Assembly: GCA_001797315.1 (NCBI GenBank)
Contig: MGPC01000018.1
Coordinates: 248,001-312,000 of the forward strand
From: Curvibacter sp. GWA2_64_110
GTDB taxonomy: Bacteria; Pseudomonadota; Gammaproteobacteria; Burkholderiales; Burkholderiaceae_C
DNA length: 64,000 nt
Direction of reading: 5' to 3'
The position numbers were made by a program, and so were the translations under genes. Below the pieces are notes generated by a model. That model made no database searches. It saw only the letters and a program-made list of their open reading frames with translations, and was not told the DNA's origin. The number at the start of each line of letters is the position of its first letter. Position 1 is the first letter of the stretch. Below are positions 41,525-57,031 of this stretch, one piece after another.

Positions 41525-44401
41525 TCAGCCGAGCATGGCCTGCGCCGCGCCGAAGCCTTGGGCCGCGGGCGGCGTACCGCCACGGCGGATGGCGACGGCA
41601 CAGTACTTGAACTCGGGAATCTTGCCGAAGGGGTCGAGCGCCGCATTGGTGATCAGGTTGGCCGCCGCCTCGTAATAGGCAAACGGGATGAACACCGCAC
41701 CGCGCGGTGTGCCGTCGTCGCGCCGCAGGTGGATGGCCACCTGGCCGCGGCGCGACGCCACCGTCACCACGTCGCCCGGCTGCAGGCCCATCTCGGCCAT
41801 GTCGGCCCCGCACATGGAAGCCGTCGCCATGGGCTCGATGGCATCGAGCACACCCGAGCGGCGCGTCATGCTGCCGGTATGCCAGTGCTCCAGCTGGCGA
41901 CCGGTGATGAGCACGAAGGGGTACTGCGCATCGGGGCGCTCGTTGGCCGGGATGATGTCGGCCGGCACCAGCCTGACACGGCCGTCGGCCGTGGGGAAGC
42001 TGTCGATGAACACCGTAGGCTGGCCCGGATCATCGGCGCTCAGGCACGGATACGTCACGCTGGACTCGCGCTCCAGCCGCTCCCAGGTGATGCCGGAGAT
42101 GGCGGCGTGCATGGCCTGGCGCATTTCCTCGTAGACCGCCGCCACGCCATCGAACGCGCCGGCATAGTTCCAGGCCAGGCCCATGCGTTGGGCGATCTGC
42201 TGGATGATCCACAGGTCCGGCTTGGCCTCGCCCGGGGGCGTAACGGCCTGCTTGCCGAGCTGCACCATGCGGTCGGTGTTGCTGACGGTGCCGGTCTTCT
42301 CGGGCCAGGCGGTGGCGGGCAGCACCACGTCGGCCAGCCAGGCGGTCTCGGTCATGAAGATGTCCTGGACCACCAGGTGCTCCAGCGCCGCCAGCGCGTG
42401 GCGCGCGTGGTTCAAATCCGGATCGCTCATGGCCGGGTTCTCGCCCTCGATGTACATGCCGCGGATCTTGTGCGGGTCGCTGTCGTCCGCCAGCGCCTTG
42501 TGCATGATCTCGACCACGGTGTAGCCGGGCTTGTCGTCCAGCTTCGTGCCCCAGAAGTGCTCGAACCACTGGTGCACGCCCGGATTGTCCACACGCTGGT
42601 AGTTGGGGAACATCATGGGAATCAGGCCGGCGTCGCTGGCGCCCTGCACATTGTTCTGGCCGCGCAGCGGGTGCAGGCCGGAGCCGGGCTTGCCGATCTG
42701 GCCGGTCACGGTGCACAGCGCGATCAGGCAGCGCACATTGTCGGTGCCGTGCACGTGCTGGCTCACGCCCATGCCCCACAGGATCATGGCTGCCTTGGCC
42801 TTGGCGAACTCGCGTGCCACCTCGCGCAGCGTGGTGGCCGGGATGCCGCAGATCGGCTCCATGGCCTCGGGGCTGTAGCCCTTGACGTTGGCCTTGAGTT
42901 CCTCGAAGTTGTTGGCGCGCTTCTTCACGAAGTCCTGGTCCACCAGACCTTCCTCAATCACCGTGTAGATCATGGCGTTGAGCATGGCCACGTCGGTGTC
43001 GGGCTTGAACTGCATCGTGCGCCAGGCGTGCTTGCCGATGTCGGTGATGCGCGGGTCGGCCAGCACCAGGCGCTTGCCCTGCTTGACCGCGTTCTTCATC
43101 CAGGTCGCGGCCACCGGGTGGTTGGCCGTCGGGTTGGAGCCGATCACCAGGATCAGATCCGAATGTTCGACGTCGTTGACCTGGTTGCTCACCGCACCCG
43201 AGCCCACACCTTCGAGCAGCGCGGCCACGCTGGAGGCATGGCACAAGCGCGTGCAGTGGTCCACGTTGTTGCTGCCAAAACCGGTGCGCACCAGCTTCTG
43301 GAACAGATAGGCCTCTTCGTTGCTGCCCTTGGCCGAGCCGAAGCCGGCCAGCGCCTTCTTGCCATGCGTATCGCGCAGGCGCTTGAGGCCGCCGGCAGCG
43401 AGGTCCAGCGCCTCGTCCCAGGTGGCTTCGCGGAACACCGCCGACCAGTCGGCCGTGTCGCGGTTGAGCTCGTTCAGCGCCTCCGGGTCCTTGGGCACGC
43501 CCGCCTTGCGGATCAACGGCACGGTCAGGCGCTGCGGGTTGTGGGCGTAATCGAAACCGAAACGGCCCTTGACGCACAAGCGCTTGTGGTTGGCCGGCCC
43601 ATCGCGACCATCGACACTGATGATCTTGTTGTCCTTGACGTTGTAGGTCAGCAGGCACCCGACGCCACAGAAGGGGCAGACGGAATCGACCTTTTTGTCC
43701 ACCACCTGTGAGCCGATGCGGGTTTTCGGCATCAACGCGCCGGTCGGGCAGGCCTGCACGCACTCGCCGCAGGCGACGCAGGTGCTCTCGCCCATGGGGT
43801 CATTCAAGTCGAACACGATCTCGCTGTGACTGCCGCGCAGCGCGTAGCCGATCACGTCATTCACCTGTTCCTCGCGGCAAGCGCGCACGCAGCGGTTGCA
43901 CTGGATGCAGGCGTCCAGGTTCACGGCCATGGCCGGGTGCGAGACGTCGGCGGCGGGCTGCTCACGGCGCAGGGCCTTGAGTTCAGGACGCACCGTCACG
44001 TCCATGTGATCGGCCCACTGCGACAGTTCGCCGTGCTGCAGCGACTCGTCCTGCTCATCCCACTTGTAGCCCTGATCGGGCATGTCGGACAGCAGCATCT
44101 CGAGCACCATCTTCTGGCTCTTGACGGCACGCTCACTGGTGGCTTGCACTTCCATGTTCGGCGTCACGCTGCGGCAACAGCTGGGGGCCAGCGTGCGCTC
44201 GCCCTTGATCTCGACCACGCAGGCGCGACAGTTGCCGTCGGGCCGCATGCCATCCTTGTAACAGAGGTGCGGGATCTCGAGTCCGACGCGCTTGGCGACG
44301 CTCAGGATGGTTTCACCGCTGTAGGCGTTGACCTTCTTGCCGTCGAGCATGAACTCGATGGTCTGCGGCATGACTTCGTTGAGTTTGGCGGGTGCGTTCA
44401 T
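41525..44401 (-). CDS. fdsA: NAD-dependent formate dehydrogenase alpha subunit (Mo/W-bisPGD)
   Basis: Cytosolic catalytic subunit of 958 residues. Order of domains: N-terminal [2Fe-2S] ferredoxin (C-rich HLCYKDGM, NCRACVVEIKG, SCCRSV), a NuoG-like His/Cys segment, two [4Fe-4S] motifs (CIQCNRCVRAC, CVACGECVQAC), the FDH [4Fe-4S] motif CPFCGVGC and the molybdopterin domains. The metal ligand is Cys387 in TRLCHASS. This FdsA/Fdh1A type oxidises formate and can reduce CO2. There is no TAT leader. I start at ATG 44401, which overlaps the beta subunit stop by 4 bases. A longer upstream frame reads into that gene. Confidence 0.96.
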   Translation of the reverse strand: MNAPAKLNEVMPQTIEFMLDGKKVNAYSGETILSVAKRVGLEIPHLCYKDGMRPDGNCRACVVEIKGERTLAPSCCRSVTPNMEVQATSERAVKSQKMVLEMLLSDMPDQGYKWDEQDESLQHGELSQWADHMDVTVRPELKALRREQPAADVSHPAMAVNLDACIQCNRCVRACREEQVNDVIGYALRGSHSEIVFDLNDPMGESTCVACGECVQACPTGALMPKTRIGSQVVDKKVDSVCPFCGVGCLLTYNVKDNKIISVDGRDGPANHKRLCVKGRFGFDYAHNPQRLTVPLIRKAGVPKDPEALNELNRDTADWSAVFREATWDEALDLAAGGLKRLRDTHGKKALAGFGSAKGSNEEAYLFQKLVRTGFGSNNVDHCTRLCHASSVAALLEGVGSGAVSNQVNDVEHSDLILVIGSNPTANHPVAATWMKNAVKQGKRLVLADPRITDIGKHAWRTMQFKPDTDVAMLNAMIYTVIEEGLVDQDFVKKRANNFEELKANVKGYSPEAMEPICGIPATTLREVAREFAKAKAAMILWGMGVSQHVHGTDNVRCLIALCTVTGQIGKPGSGLHPLRGQNNVQGASDAGLIPMMFPNYQRVDNPGVHQWFEHFWGTKLDDKPGYTVVEIMHKALADDSDPHKIRGMYIEGENPAMSDPDLNHARHALAALEHLVVQDIFMTETAWLADVVLPATAWPEKTGTVSNTDRMVQLGKQAVTPPGEAKPDLWIIQQIAQRMGLAWNYAGAFDGVAAVYEEMRQAMHAAISGITWERLERESSVTYPCLSADDPGQPTVFIDSFPTADGRVRLVPADIIPANERPDAQYPFVLITGRQLEHWHTGSMTRRSGVLDAIEPMATASMCGADMAEMGLQPGDVVTVASRRGQVAIHLRRDDGTPRGAVFIPFAYYEAAANLITNAALDPFGKIPEFKYCAVAIRRGGTPPAAQGFGAAQAMLG

Positions 44402-46218
44402 GCCTGGCCTCCCAGTTCTTGGGGGAAATATTTCTGAATGCAACGGATCGGGTTCGGCGCGGCCTGACCCAGGCCGCAGATGGAGGCATCGCCCATCACC
44501 TGGCACAGGTCTTCGAGCAGGACGTTGTCCCACTCGTCAGCCTCCATCAGCTTGGCGGCCTTGGCGGTACCGACGCGGCAGGGCGTGCACTGGCCGCAGC
44601 TCTCATGCGCGAAGAAGCGCATCATGTTCAGCGCGGCTTCGCGTGCCGAGTCCTTCTGCGACAGGACAATGACGGCGGCCGAACCGATGAAACAGCCATA
44701 GGGCTGCAGGGTGTCGAAATCCAGCGGGATGTCGCCCATGCTGGCCGGCAGGATGCCGCCCGAGGCGCCACCCGGCAAGTAGGCGTAGAGTTCATGGCCG
44801 TCGAGCATGCCGCCGCAGTACTGGTCCACCAGCTCGCGGATGGTGATGCCGGCCGGGGCCAGCTTGACGCCCGGGTGCTTGACCCGGCCGCTGACACTGA
44901 AGGAACGCAGGCCCTTGCGGCCATTGGCGCCGAAGCTGGAGAACCAGGTGGGGCCCTTCTGCACGATGTCGCGTACCCAGTAGAGGGTCTCGAAGTTGTG
45001 TTCCAGCGTGGGCCGGCCGAACAGGCCGACCTGCGCGATATAGGGCGGACGCATGCGCGGCTCGCCGCGCTTGCCCTCGATGCTCTCGATCATGGCGGAC
45101 TCTTCGCCGCAGATGTAGGCACCGGCGCCGCGGCGCAACTCGATCTGCGGCAGCGGGCACGGCGGGTTGGCCTGCAGCGCGGCCAGTTCGGCTTCCAGCA
45201 AGGCACGGGCGCCATGGTATTCATCGCGCAGGTAGATGTAGCAAGCCCCCACACCCACGGCATAGGCGGCAATGAGCAGCCCCTCCAGGAAACGGTGCGG
45301 ATCGCGCTCCAGGTAAGTGCGGTCCTTGAACGTGCCGGGCTCGCCTTCGTCAATGTTGACCGCCATCACGCGCGGCGCCGGCTGGTCGCGCACGATGCGC
45401 CACTTGCGGCCGGCCGGGAAGCCGGCGCCGCCCAGGCCGCGCAAGCCCGAGTCTTCCATGGCCTTGATGACCGGTTCAACTTCCTGCTTGCCACTCAGCA
45501 GGTCTGCCACGAGTCGGTAGCCGCCCTGGGCCTTGTAAGCCTCAAAGCCGACGAAGTCGGGCGAGACCTGCTGCTGGCTGGGCGCGGGGGAAACGGATTT
45601 GAGCGCCAGCGCCGCCGGCTCGAAAGCCGCCTTGCCGCTGGACTTCGGGTGCGTGCTGACGCCAGCCTTCACCGCCTTGGCCACGCTCTCGGGCGTGGCG
45701 CGCAACACCGGGTTCTGATGCACCACCGCCACCGGCGCCTGCTCGCAGCGGCCGACGCAAGGGGCTGCCACCACGCGCACGCCATTGCCGGTGAGTGTGG
45801 CTTGCAGCTTGGTCATCAGGCTCTTGGCGCCACCCATCTCGCAGCTCAGGCCATCGCAGACGCGCACGGTCAGCCCGGGTGCGGGTTCGTCGCCCTTGAC
45901 CACCTCGAAGTGGTGGTAGAAGGTCGCGACCTCGTAGACCTCGGCCATGGGGAGATTCATCTCCTTGGCCAGCGCCACCAGATGCCGGTCTTGCAGGCAG
46001 CGGTAGGCATCGTTGAGCTTGTGCAACTGCTCGATCAGCAGGTCGCGCCGGTGGCCCCCCTCGGGGCGAGGTCCGATCAGGGCCACCACCTCGGCCAGAG
46101 ATTGGGCGTCCGGCTGGCGGCCCTTGAGCTTGCTTTTGCGCCGGATCCGCTCGCGCAGATCATCGACGGTGGCAACAGCCACGACCTGCACTTCGCCTTG
46201 ACGGCCTGGGTGGTTCAT
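44398..46218 (-). CDS. NAD-dependent formate dehydrogenase beta subunit, fused NuoE-NuoF type
   Basis: A 606-residue diaphorase subunit that carries electrons from the alpha subunit to NAD+. Residues ~50-190 are a NuoE/FdsG thioredoxin-like [2Fe-2S] domain with Cys121, Cys126, Cys154 and Cys158. After a Pro/Ser-rich linker (~190-225) comes a NuoF/FdsB part: FMN site GLRGLGGAGFPAGRKW, NADH-binding DEGEPGTFKDR and RRGAGAYICGEESA, and a [4Fe-4S] motif ESCGQCTPCRVG near the C-terminus. In Cupriavidus-type Fds enzymes these are separate genes. The fusion matches the two-subunit FDH1 of Methylobacterium. No fdsC/fdsD genes follow. Confidence 0.94.
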   Translation of the reverse strand: MNHPGRQGEVQVVAVATVDDLRERIRRKSKLKGRQPDAQSLAEVVALIGPRPEGGHRRDLLIEQLHKLNDAYRCLQDRHLVALAKEMNLPMAEVYEVATFYHHFEVVKGDEPAPGLTVRVCDGLSCEMGGAKSLMTKLQATLTGNGVRVVAAPCVGRCEQAPVAVVHQNPVLRATPESVAKAVKAGVSTHPKSSGKAAFEPAALALKSVSPAPSQQQVSPDFVGFEAYKAQGGYRLVADLLSGKQEVEPVIKAMEDSGLRGLGGAGFPAGRKWRIVRDQPAPRVMAVNIDEGEPGTFKDRTYLERDPHRFLEGLLIAAYAVGVGACYIYLRDEYHGARALLEAELAALQANPPCPLPQIELRRGAGAYICGEESAMIESIEGKRGEPRMRPPYIAQVGLFGRPTLEHNFETLYWVRDIVQKGPTWFSSFGANGRKGLRSFSVSGRVKHPGVKLAPAGITIRELVDQYCGGMLDGHELYAYLPGGASGGILPASMGDIPLDFDTLQPYGCFIGSAAVIVLSQKDSAREAALNMMRFFAHESCGQCTPCRVGTAKAAKLMEADEWDNVLLEDLCQVMGDASICGLGQAAPNPIRCIQKYFPQELGGQA

Positions 46219-54006: not shown

Positions 54007-54798
54007 ATGTCCGGATCCAAGCAGCCGACGCATCCGCCCAGCCACCCCCACTGGTGGACCGATATCCACCGCTCGACGGCGGTCAACCTCCGGCTTGGCA
54101 TTTCACTGTGTTTCATCGCCGGGGCCACCAATGCGGGGGGCTTTCTCGCTGTCGGCCAATACACCTCTCACATGACGGGACTGCTGTCCTCGATTGCCGA
54201 CAACCTCGTGCTGGGCCAATTCGGGCTGATCACGGCCAGCCTGGCGGCGATTGCGGCATTCCTGGGCGGCGCCATGACGACGGCCTGGATGGTGAACTGG
54301 AGCATGCGCCGGCACCTGCGTAGCGCTTTTGCCCGCCCACTCGTCGTCGAGGCGGGTCTACTCCTGCTGTTTGGCCTATTCGGTGCGGCGATCAACCTGT
54401 TCGCCGATTTCTTTGCCCCGCTGACCGTGCTGATCCTGTGCTTCATCATGGGCCTGCAAAACGCCGTCATCACCAAGATCTCGAATGCGGAAATCAGGAC
54501 CACACACGTCACGGGCTTGATCACCGACATTGGCATTGAGATCGGCAAGCTGCTTTATTACCACCGCTCTGAGTCACCGATCAAGGTCATTGCCAATCGT
54601 CGGAAGCTGAAGATTCACCTGTCGCTGACCTCGGCGTTCCTGGCTGGCGGCCTGATAGGCGCTTTCGGCTTCAAGTTCTGGGGCTACATCACGACGGTGC
54701 CGCTGGCCTTGCTTCTTGTGCTGCTGGTCTGGGGGCCCATCAGCGATGACATCCGCTCGGGCAGGATAGCACCCCTGCCGCCCAGACATCAGCCTTGA
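54007..54798 (+). CDS. DUF1275 (YoaK-family) membrane protein
   Basis: A 263-residue inner-membrane protein with about six helices, belonging to the DUF1275/YoaK family. The diagnostic first helix CFIAGATNAGGFLAVGQYTSHMTG is clear, with the second motif LQNAVITKISNAEIRTTHVTG. Function unknown; a transporter or channel is guessed in the literature. The N-terminal ~25 residues are hydrophilic and His/Pro-rich. Convergent with the hydrogenase-like operon, 34 bp from its last gene. Confidence 0.88.
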   Translation: MSGSKQPTHPPSHPHWWTDIHRSTAVNLRLGISLCFIAGATNAGGFLAVGQYTSHMTGLLSSIADNLVLGQFGLITASLAAIAAFLGGAMTTAWMVNWSMRRHLRSAFARPLVVEAGLLLLFGLFGAAINLFADFFAPLTVLILCFIMGLQNAVITKISNAEIRTTHVTGLITDIGIEIGKLLYYHRSESPIKVIANRRKLKIHLSLTSAFLAGGLIGAFGFKFWGYITTVPLALLLVLLVWGPISDDIRSGRIAPLPPRHQP

Positions 54799-54832: not shown

Positions 54833-55375
54833 TCATCTCTGCGTCTCATCCCCTGCAGAAACAGACCGGCAACGGCGCACCGCCGTCAGGATGCCGCGCA
54901 GTATGTCAATCGGAGCCGGCGGGCAGCCCGGCACCACAAGATCCACCGGAATGACATTGGAGACGCGGCCGCAGCTGGCGTAACTCTCGCCAAAAATGCC
55001 GCCATCCCCGCCGCAATCCCCCACGGCAACGACCAGTTTGGGTTCGGGCGTGGCATCGAAGGTGCGTTTCAAGGCGAGCGCCATGTTTCGGGACACCGGC
55101 CCGGTCACCAGCAGCATGTCGGCATGGCGCGGACTCGCAACGAACTTGATACCCAGCCCTTCGATGTTGTAGTACGGATTGCCCAGGGCATGGATTTCCA
55201 GTTCGCAGCCATTGCAGGACCCTGCATCCACCATGCGGATGGTCAAGGCCTGCCCCAGAATGTCGAGCAGGTCGCGCTGGATACGTTCGCTCTCGACACG
55301 CAACGCGTCGCTGCTCACGGGCGCCGCTTCGGTACGAATCCCGTTGCGGGCAATCTGTTTGATGATGTTCCACAT
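54833..55375 (-). CDS. Hydrogenase-4-like small subunit (HyfI/NuoB type)
   Basis: A 180-residue homologue of NuoB and HyfI, the subunit holding the proximal [4Fe-4S] cluster nearest the catalytic or quinone site. All four cluster cysteines remain: Cys54 and Cys57 (GSCNGCE), Cys121 (VGDCGGDGG) and Cys151 (VVPGCPPAP). It is the last gene of the operon; its start is 72 nt after the large-subunit stop. The intact cluster site beside a large subunit that has lost its Ni ligands is the notable contrast. ATG 55375 is chosen from a longer frame. Confidence 0.92.
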   Translation of the reverse strand: MWNIIKQIARNGIRTEAAPVSSDALRVESERIQRDLLDILGQALTIRMVDAGSCNGCELEIHALGNPYYNIEGLGIKFVASPRHADMLLVTGPVSRNMALALKRTFDATPEPKLVVAVGDCGGDGGIFGESYASCGRVSNVIPVDLVVPGCPPAPIDILRGILTAVRRCRSVSAGDETQR

Positions 55376-55447
55376 AAGCCTACATCCGGTGGAGAGAATT
55401 GCCGCAGTGCAGCCCAAGCGGATACGTCGTCATGGTCGGACCCAGGT

Positions 55448-57031
55448 TCACAGGTCGTGCCCCGAATAACTGAGGTTGAAGGACTTGTTGATGAGCGGAA
55501 AATCAGGAACGATATTTCCGATCACCGCATGCTCAATCACCGGCCAGTTCTGCCATGAAGGATCATGGCAGTGGCAGCGGCGGATGCGGTGATGGTTCGC
55601 CTCACCATCGAGTTCCAGCGCAACAAGAATTTCACCGCGCCAGCCCTCGACCCAGCCGGCACCGCGCGCGGCACGGGTGGGCAGGCTCAGTTCGCGACGG
55701 GTCTGCCCCGCCGGCAGATCGGCAGCCATGGCACGCATCAGCCGCAGCGACTCCAACAGCTCCTCGAAACGGACGGCCACCCGGGCCGCAACGTCGCCAT
55801 TGCGGTGGGTTGCCATCTTCACATGCAGACTGTCATAGGGCGACCACGGATGGTCACAGCGCAGATCCACCGCCTGGCCGCCGGCGCGGCCGGCAAGTCC
55901 CGTCAACCCCAGTTGCGCTGCCAACTCCGGACTCACACGCCCGGTATTGATGAAACGATCCTGCAAGCCGGCATGCTCCTCGTACACCGTCCGCAGGGTT
56001 TGTACCTCGCGCTCGATGGCATCGCATTGTCGGCGCAGCCGATCCATGGCTGTGCGATCCACGTCACACGCCACGCCGCCGGGTATCACGCCGTCCATCA
56101 TCAGGCGGTGGCCGAAGATGTCTTTCGAAAGGCGCAACCAGTCCTCCCGCAGGCGGGAGAACTGGGCCAGACCAAAGGCCAATGCCACATCGTTGCCAAG
56201 CGCTCCCAGATCGCCCAGATGGTTGGCGACGCGTTCGCGCTCCAGCATGAGCGCGCGCAGCCACCCGGCACGTGGCGGGATATCGCAGGCCGCCGCCGAC
56301 TCCAGCGCCATGCAATAGGCCCAGGCATAGGCAACCGTCGAATCCCCTGAAACCCGCCCCGCCAAACGGCAGGCTTGCAAGGGTGGGAGTTGCGTGAAGC
56401 GCTTTTCAATCCCCTTGTGGGTATAGCCCAGGCGCTGCTCCAGACGCAGCACCTTTTCGCCAACGACGGAGAAACGAAAATGGCCCGGCTCGATGATGCC
56501 GGCATGCACAGGCCCCACCGCGATCTCATGCACCCCATCGCCTTCGACCCGGACAAACGGGTAATCGGCCACCTGGGCGTCCGGGAATAGCTGCTGCGCG
56601 GACACGCCCGGTTCCAATGGGAAATGATCCGCTGGCCACGCGCCATGGTTCAACCACGGACGGTGATCCTGGCCGCCCTCGGCGTGAATGCCCGACAGAT
56701 CGGCGGCGGCGCGCTGCATCCGCAGGCCCGCCGGAAAAATCGACGACAGATCAGGGTAGGCCGGCGGATCGCCAGCCAGCGGCAGTTCAAGCCAGATCAG
56801 GCCCTCGGGCACCGCATACGCCGCACAGACAGAGCGACCGCCTGCTTCAGCAAGCTGCCCTGCCGCTACGGCTTCCTGGCTGGCACGGTCCGAGCCCCAC
56901 AGCGAAATCAGCCGCCCCCCCGCCTTGCGCACGGCAACGGCCGCTTCCTGCCAATCGTCGAGCACGATACGGCCATGCCAGATCGGCACCGGAGCGCTCA
57001 GACGTTCAAGATTCAATCCGGCCATCAGCAT
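55448..57031 (-). CDS. Hydrogenase-4-like large subunit (HyfG type) without Ni-Fe ligands
   Basis: A 527-residue fusion of a NuoC-like N-terminus (~1-180) and a NuoD/HyfG-like domain (GYTHKGIEKRFTQLPP onward). In real group 4 hydrogenases the next motif is RVCGICxxxH. Here it is RVSGDSTVAYAWAY, with Ser228 and Ser231 where the cysteines should be. The C-terminal DPCxxC is HDPSWQNWP (Ser492, Asn495). So no [NiFe] centre can form and it is not a hydrogenase. It resembles Ehr-type complexes. ATG 57031 has GGAGGG 7 nt upstream and lies 5 nt after the HyfF-like stop. Confidence 0.9.
   Translation of the reverse strand: MLMAGLNLERLSAPVPIWHGRIVLDDWQEAAVAVRKAGGRLISLWGSDRASQEAVAAGQLAEAGGRSVCAAYAVPEGLIWLELPLAGDPPAYPDLSSIFPAGLRMQRAAADLSGIHAEGGQDHRPWLNHGAWPADHFPLEPGVSAQQLFPDAQVADYPFVRVEGDGVHEIAVGPVHAGIIEPGHFRFSVVGEKVLRLEQRLGYTHKGIEKRFTQLPPLQACRLAGRVSGDSTVAYAWAYCMALESAAACDIPPRAGWLRALMLERERVANHLGDLGALGNDVALAFGLAQFSRLREDWLRLSKDIFGHRLMMDGVIPGGVACDVDRTAMDRLRRQCDAIEREVQTLRTVYEEHAGLQDRFINTGRVSPELAAQLGLTGLAGRAGGQAVDLRCDHPWSPYDSLHVKMATHRNGDVAARVAVRFEELLESLRLMRAMAADLPAGQTRRELSLPTRAARGAGWVEGWRGEILVALELDGEANHHRIRRCHCHDPSWQNWPVIEHAVIGNIVPDFPLINKSFNLSYSGHDL

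Follow-up and report, generated by a model that had tools for sequence, protein, structure and literature searches.

The six-gene operon described here encodes a complex of the known Ehr class, whose large subunit HyfG has lost every ligand cysteine of the Ni-Fe site, and this complex is almost certainly not a hydrogenase. It lies in the window, by which we mean the whole stretch of 64,000 nucleotides of Curvibacter sp. GWA2_64_110 that was analysed. The gene for HyfG is under purifying selection and is intact rather than decayed. As the best explanation overall we tentatively put forward an Ehr complex that would function as a six-subunit, complex-I-related membrane oxidoreductase and neither make nor use H2; that it works as a redox-active ion pump is probable.

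Ehr complexes, i.e. energy-converting or Ech hydrogenase-related complexes, are described in several studies (PMC6349859, PMC10284858, PMC7304191, PMC7894505). As far as the available parts of these papers go, their likeness to the present complex lies in a group-4-like large subunit without Ni-Fe cysteines (PMC10284858, PMC7304191), accompanied by small, NuoL-like and HyfE-like subunits (PMC7894505), and their reaction is left unassigned. The preliminary description of the window, which had termed the complex Ehr-type with no assigned reaction, is in line with these accounts. Geobacter sulfurreducens possesses EhrL, EhrS, EhrA-1 and EhrC (GSU0739-45), and the role of Ehr in this species 'has never been investigated', in the words of the excerpted text (PMC7894505). 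Indeed, no tested function for Ehr was found in the open-access literature searched. Marreiros 2013 is reportedly the Ehr work cited within later papers on the class.

Operon layout and class membership

The operon consists of six close-packed genes, hyfB-C-E-F-G-I, which run on the minus strand from 62122 down to 54833 (Table 1). Its large subunit is HycE/NuoD-like and devoid of the Ni-Fe cysteines, and the remaining genes provide the small, NuoH-like, HyfE-like and antiporter-like subunits that characterise Ehr operons. The profiles matched by hyfE and hyfF are those of the hydrogenase 4 membrane subunit (NF008556) and hydrogenase 4 subunit F (NF005045). The length given for hyfF counts from a TTG start that was picked by its overlap with hyfE, and for hyfI the alignment points to the ATG at 55375 as the likely start, which would give 180 aa.

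Table 1. Operon genes, large-subunit motifs and a nearby formate dehydrogenase, in positions of the window
Feature	Position	Strand	Evidence or remark
hyfB, antiporter-like membrane subunit, 674 aa	60098..62122	-	NCBIfam NF005086 hydrogenase 4 subunit B, 915.6 bits, cut-off 667
hyfC, NuoH-like membrane anchor, 315 aa	59154..60101	-	Pfam PF00146, E 1.9e-36
hyfE, small membrane subunit, 219 aa	58493..59152	-	NCBIfam NF008556, 92.1 bits, under cut-off 136
hyfF, second antiporter-like membrane subunit, 486 aa	57036..58496	-	NCBIfam NF005045, 888.8 bits, cut-off 543
hyfG / EhrL-like large subunit, NuoC-D fusion fold, without Ni-Fe ligands, 527 aa	55448..57031	-	
SGDS, codons 228-231, replaces first CxxC (HycE C241-G-I-C244)	56339..56350	-	Alignment
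DPSWQN, codons 490-495, conserved, aligns with HycE AATYANWP (no Ni-Fe ligand)	55547..55564	-	
SYSG, codons 521-524, replaces second CxxC (HycE C531-Y-S-C534)	55460..55471	-	Alignment
hyfI / EhrS-like, NuoB-like small subunit, one [4Fe-4S] site	54833..55417	-	Pfam PF01058, E 3.4e-28
NAD-type formate dehydrogenase, alpha and fused NuoE/F-like subunit	41525-46218		Pfam/NCBIfam; ~9 kb from operon

Genes for HyfA, HyfD, HyfH and HyfJ were not found in the operon among its open reading frames or by Pfam and NCBIfam profiles, nor does it hold a gene for a ferredoxin-type subunit. When the operon spans were scanned in six frames, no locus had more than one ferredoxin-type cysteine motif, and one was present in 7 of 76 and 2 of 33 spans; three of these nine stray matches are interrupted by a stop, and the E. 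coli control regions carry three motifs each. Compared with E. coli hydrogenase-3/4 (HycE, HyfG; formate hydrogenlyase), the window's operon shares the HyfB, F and G folds and the proton-path residues and lacks the CxxC pairs, HyfA/D/H/J and a formate dehydrogenase within the operon. With complex I (NuoB/C/D/H/L/M) it has the core fold, the cluster at the N2 position and the ion-path residues in common, and it differs in the absence of the quinone-binding His/Tyr, in a CxxC instead of adjacent cysteines, and in having no NADH/NuoI modules.

For comparison, 80 loci were kept from a genome scan with at least 589 relatives. Homologues of all six genes are present in 71 of them (in the same order in 69) and in 31 of 35 loci of a wider set (in order in 30), where many of the fetched stretches stop at contig ends. 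The wider set comes from a sample of the phylum, in which 120 of 398 genomes gave a match at E 1e-25 and 63, the window's own genome included, held an Ehr-like one (62 scoring at least 329 bits, and a fragment scoring 228 bits). These scores stand apart from those of HycE-like matches (150-197 bits) and of NuoD-like or more distant ones (~90-117 bits). Of the forty places fetched, five were chosen to represent other groups and 35 were Ehr-like; in one Ehr-like locus HyfF and HyfG share a reading frame, and it was left out of the wider alignment (n = 34).

In the tree, which holds GTDB sequences, unnamed relatives and E. coli and no named EhrL, group 4f, Ech or Mbh references, a 100/100 branch parts the HycE-like and NuoCD rows from all Ehr rows. 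It was computed without L129 and the NuoD of the window's own genome, and the program flagged long branches, chiefly that of NuoCD. Genomes of one family (L157, L158) have a large subunit of a third kind, distant and group-4-like, which lacks CxxC and carries the motifs RINAVD/RINALD and SSFG/ASFG; this pair falls on the Ehr side of the 100/100 branch.

Loss of the Ni-Fe ligands in HyfG

HyfG is encoded by an open frame and is homologous to HycE (7z0s_E, E 1.1e-56), which is also its best Foldseek match, complex I being the next; among solved proteins, E. coli HycE is the best match in both sequence and fold. The Pfam families detected are those of the complex I 49-kDa and 30-kDa subunits, and the [NiFe] hydrogenase family was matched only under its cut-off. 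The preliminary description had stated that all Ni-Fe ligand cysteines are lost, and both the alignment with HycE and the homologue counts bear this out. HycE CGIC aligns on S228-G-D-S231, exactly where RVSGDS (Ser228, Ser231) had been proposed as the remnant of the first motif. The second motif, by contrast, had been sought at DPSWQN (Ser492, Asn495) and was misplaced: HycE DPC531-Y-S-C534 falls on L520-S521-Y-S-G524, at the C-terminal end of HyfG. Since Ser521 and Gly524 are not cysteines either, the conclusion stands despite the wrong placement. No CxxC, at these sites or elsewhere, was found in the whole 527-aa protein. The conserved stretches GYTHKGIEK and LINKSFNLSYSGHDL are present as had been noted, and HyfG differs from HycE in ending 3 residues past Gly524, without the C-terminal extension.

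The loss is general among the relatives. In an alignment of 80 HyfG sequences (the window and 79 fetched loci, the 80th having been dropped for coverage below 70%), 77 carry no cysteine at any of the four ligand sites and three carry one, always at position 228. This position is Ser in 72, Ala in five and Cys in three sequences, and position 231 is Ser in 72 and Thr in eight; position 521 is occupied by Ser (70), Asn (5), Ala (3) or Gly (2), and position 524 by Gly (78) or Ala (2). Similarly, 33 of 34 wider Ehr loci across the phylum have no cysteine at the four sites, and one has a single cysteine. At position 520, just before a lost Ni ligand, 27 of the 34 wider homologues have Cys, and 80/80 of the window's group have Leu.

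The earlier view that the gene is not decayed is confirmed by five pairwise comparisons of hyfG, with dN of 0.16-0.22, dS of 1.1-1.7 and dN/dS of 0.12-0.15. Together with the kept residues, this purifying selection makes HyfG look like a working protein.

A hydrogenase that holds its metal on altered (Ser) ligands would agree with the HycE-like fold and proton path of HyfG. The four ligand positions, however, vary to Ala and Gly, the C-terminal extension is missing, and neither HypD nor a further hydrogenase is found in the genome, which leaves such an enzyme scarcely credible. HypD is the host factor for making the Fe(CN)2CO unit. Its profile (PF01924) had no match in the window's own genome, which is 95.6% complete, and the search control was positive in 4 of 14 genomes. 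The sole PF00374 match in this genome is the present hyfG, under cut-off, and no other [NiFe] hydrogenase was found there at the same completeness. A metal site on the substituted residues was rejected, as the four positions vary among homologues; that variation (S/A/C, S/T, S/N/A/G and G/A) also weakens the former suggestion of another cofactor bound by the same ligands.

Retained residues and candidate mechanism

The cysteines C68, C71, C135 and C165 of HyfI (194-aa numbering) are invariant in 81/81 aligned sequences, and in the wider small-subunit alignment all four occur in 39/39 rows (the window, 33 Ehr loci and five other-group loci). Their spacing is of the hydrogenase type, CxxC (CNGC), in contrast to the adjacent CC of NuoB. 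Likewise, HycE E193, H284, R395, E437 and R478, which have proton-path roles according to the available text of PMC9474812, correspond to E181, H271, R382, E424 and R465 of HyfG, conserved in 80/80 sequences and, in the wider set, in 33-34 of 34. The canopy residue Asp529 of HycE is reported there to be strictly conserved in the superfamily (PMC9474812, in part), whereas HyfG has Asn519 in 80/80 and in 34/34 sequences of the wider set. Two further residues, Lys516 and Asp230, the latter between the lost cysteines, are invariant in the same 80/80 and 34/34 sequences.

In the membrane arm, HyfB E150, K230, K261 and E414 are the equivalents of NuoM E144, K234, K265 and E407. E150, K230 and E414 are invariant in 65/65 sequences, and K261 is kept in 51 of 65, with Asn in the other 14. 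HyfF has E137 in 75 of 76 sequences (one reads X) and K226, N257 and E400 in 76/76; the position of NuoM K265 is thus Asn throughout in HyfF, as it is in E. coli HyfF. These residues show that the Ni-Fe site is lost and that the HycE proton pathway, the ligand set of a single proximal [4Fe-4S] cluster and most ion-path residues of the two antiporter-like subunits are retained.

In the favoured reading of the Ehr complex as a membrane oxidoreductase, a soluble low-potential carrier, either ferredoxin or flavodoxin, would deliver electrons to the single HyfI cluster and may dock at the place where hydrogenases have their ferredoxin subunit. Such direct feeding of HyfI, which we infer from the missing wire subunits, is conceivable and somewhat doubtful. 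The former Ni-Fe pocket, with an expected lining of Glu181, Asp230, Arg465, Lys516 and Asn519, would be the proton-loading site, and a small acceptor would be reduced in it; charge and loop movement in the pocket would then push ions via HyfC, HyfB and HyfF. In an AlphaFold model of HyfG alone, residues 157-205 and 509-527, i.e. the walls of the pocket, have pLDDT below 50.

A point in favour of a redox-active pump is the small subunit of a related Ehr type (C type, see below), which in the three aligned copies has a ferredoxin domain with two cluster motifs fused to its N-terminus. Against it counts that Asn519 in place of the canopy Asp could mean altered or lost proton chemistry; the canopy position is Asp in four aligned C-type copies. 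Moreover, pumps of this superfamily seldom have just one cluster and no wire subunit. Alternatively, the complex could be an ion transporter without redox activity, in which the peripheral arm is merely a structural or regulatory attachment to the antiporter-like membrane arm. This would suit an operon without a donor subunit and the largely retained antiporter-like residues, but it leaves the invariance of the four cluster cysteines and of the whole proton path against it, and we consider it quite unlikely. The same invariance of the small-subunit [4Fe-4S] cysteines (81/81, and 33/33 wider Ehr loci) weakens the earlier idea of a purely conformational element.

The pocket had also been suggested to bind quinone, and a quinone oxidoreductase would use it for ubiquinone or menaquinone as complex I does, the quinone entering past HyfC. 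Complex I is the fold match next to HycE and has itself lost all four Ni-Fe cysteines (PMC7684303, as excerpted), and His205 and the canopy Arg are kept in HyfG. Yet the complex I headgroup is held by a His and a Tyr (His38 and Tyr87 in T. thermophilus Nqo4, PMC7684303; see also PMC9474812, both in part), and these are missing from HyfG, where positions 180/181 are I/E and position 229 is G in 80/80 sequences. In addition, the HyfC loop, PVDNPETHLELTMIHE, is not of the NuoH type and differs from the PFD..EAEQEL of HycD/NuoH. A complex-I-type quinone site was rejected on the missing His/Tyr pair, and the suggestion of complex-I-like binding is weakened accordingly; binding by another mode could occur, and a quinone reaction is on the whole unlikely.

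Pyrococcus MBS, a sulfane sulfur reductase, is likewise derived from group 4 and without a working Ni-Fe site, and like the present complex it lacks the quinone residues, according to part of PMC7684303. An enzyme of this kind would reduce polysulfide at the cluster itself. MBS, however, is described in the same text as keeping two of the four Ni-Fe cysteines, as requiring for catalysis a three-cysteine cluster from a shorter motif, and as having no hydrogenase proton path (PMC7684303), whereas HyfI has four cysteines in hydrogenase-type CxxC spacing and HyfG retains the path. MBS-type chemistry was rejected because cluster motif and proton path differ from those of MBS, and we regard this reading as very improbable, also in view of the SoxB counts below.

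Partner genes and genomic setting

Co-occurrence was assessed in 200 genomes of the order, 56 of which are Ehr-positive (E <=1e-80) and 144 negative. RuBisCO is present in 37/56 Ehr-positive and 36/144 negative genomes (odds ratio 5.8, P 1.8e-7), after 17 of 90 matching genomes had been dropped (below 240 bits, RuBisCO-like or fragments; four of them Ehr-positive); with all 90 the counts are 41/56 and 49/144. The nifH gene exceeds its cut-off in 19/56 versus 8/144 genomes (odds ratio 8.7; two weaker of 29 matches, both Ehr-negative, were dropped), and a [NiFe] hydrogenase occurs in 22/56 versus 21/144. Six gene families were tested, and the P values are uncorrected: shuffling within families gives 0.044 for RuBisCO, 0.033 for [NiFe] hydrogenase, 0.10 for nifH, 0.41 for formate dehydrogenase (FDH), 0.70 for SoxB and 0.99 for DabA. 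When family majorities are counted, RuBisCO keeps P 0.034, while neither [NiFe] hydrogenase (0.16) nor nifH (0.11) is remarkable; with families bootstrapped in a joint logistic model, the intervals of RuBisCO (0.27 to 2.52) and nifH (0.10 to 2.62) both lie above zero. Ehr co-occurs with RuBisCO and nifH, weakly after family control, which is an association with lifestyle and not proof of function. None of RuBisCO, nifH and [NiFe] hydrogenase is present in 18/56 Ehr-positive genomes and at least one of them in 46/144 Ehr-negative ones, so no single metabolism accounts for the presence of Ehr. The window's genome has RuBisCO, SoxB and FDH, and profile searches found in it no nifH, [NiFe] hydrogenase or DabA. 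Physical linkage to RuBisCO was seen in 0/80 loci and in two of 45 others, at 5.3 and 14.4 kb, both being regions chosen for their nearness to RuBisCO.

In autotrophic and diazotrophic Proteobacteria the Ehr complex might also run backwards, with membrane potential pushing electrons onto ferredoxin or flavodoxin via the exposed HyfI cluster. This is improbable; if true, the complex would supply low-potential electrons for CO2 or N2 fixation and be a complex-I-like counterpart of Rnf.

SoxB is found in 40/56 Ehr-positive and 58/144 Ehr-negative genomes (from 98 genomes, one below the curated cut-off), as an MBS-like sulfur reductase might lead one to expect. Within families, however, the link is gone (P 0.70), and genomes with SoxB but no RuBisCO are no commoner among the Ehr-positive ones (9/56 versus 35/144).

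Formate is another conceivable electron source, by way of an NAD-type FDH like that of the window (Table 1), whose homologues also lie near the operon in L046. An FDH-Ehr pairing has been proposed for Riflemargulisbacteria and Saganbacteria (PMC6349859, in part), and in Geobacter sulfurreducens all Ehr subunits are, according to the available text, highly abundant with formate versus hydrogen-containing conditions (PMC7894505). The latter observation speaks most strongly for a formate link; it comes from another lineage and runs counter to the co-occurrence result. The FDH alpha subunit exceeds its curated cut-off in 29/56 Ehr-positive and 78/144 Ehr-negative genomes (odds ratio 0.91), and a close FdhA (>200 bits) lies in the fetched flanks, many of which are cut by contig ends, in one of 80 loci and none of 45 others; weaker molybdenum-enzyme matches occur near the operon in three more of the 80. 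An FDH partnership as a general rule in the order was rejected on this lack of co-occurrence (200 genomes) and linkage (1/80 and 0/45), and electron supply by such an FDH seems to us a poor prospect. A DabA partnership was rejected as well (9/56 Ehr-positive versus 30/144 Ehr-negative genomes). Genes for this inorganic-carbon transporter were observed in the fetched Ehr flanks of L017 and L051.

The surroundings of the operon vary among loci; neighbouring genes were called by codon scoring, which miscalled some frames, and the counts that follow cover the flanks as fetched. A second, different Ehr operon adjoins the first in at least 8/80 loci, flanks being cut. Three are of a B type with the motifs SGDS or SGDC, and SYSG (L026, L032, L054), and five of the C type (L040, L041, L042, L045, L063). 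A SpeE or spermidine-synthase-like gene, with PF01564 in the members scanned, lies near the operon in 14/80 and 1/45 loci, in several directly upstream of hyfB (the loci include L031, L032, L042, L057, L063, L078 and L080). A DUF1275 membrane protein, encoded in the window at 54007-54798, was seen in varied arrangements in 10/80 and 2/45 loci (among them L004, L005, L016, L080, L122 and L152). Regulator types differ by lineage and stand mostly upstream of hyfB. An RHH gene, RHH_9 by Pfam in L042 and by similarity to L042 elsewhere, is near the operon in 23/80 and 2/45 loci (including L042 and L063). XRE regulators, called by eye, lie beside the operon with a C-terminal domain in L126, L142, L145-L147 and L149-L151, and in a short form in L128, L130, L132, L137, L138, L139 and L141. 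L145 and L146 have a tandem pair of hyfB-like genes, and in L145 hyfF and hyfG form one frame of ~1005 aa.

Ehr shows the machine parts of complex I, namely cluster, proton path and ion channels, staying after the loss of Ni-Fe. Asp230 and Asn519 are new parts, which offer clear mutants for probing the coupling between redox chemistry and ion pumping. Finally, the tendency of Ehr to occur together with RuBisCO and nifH points to growth conditions under which to look first for a phenotype.
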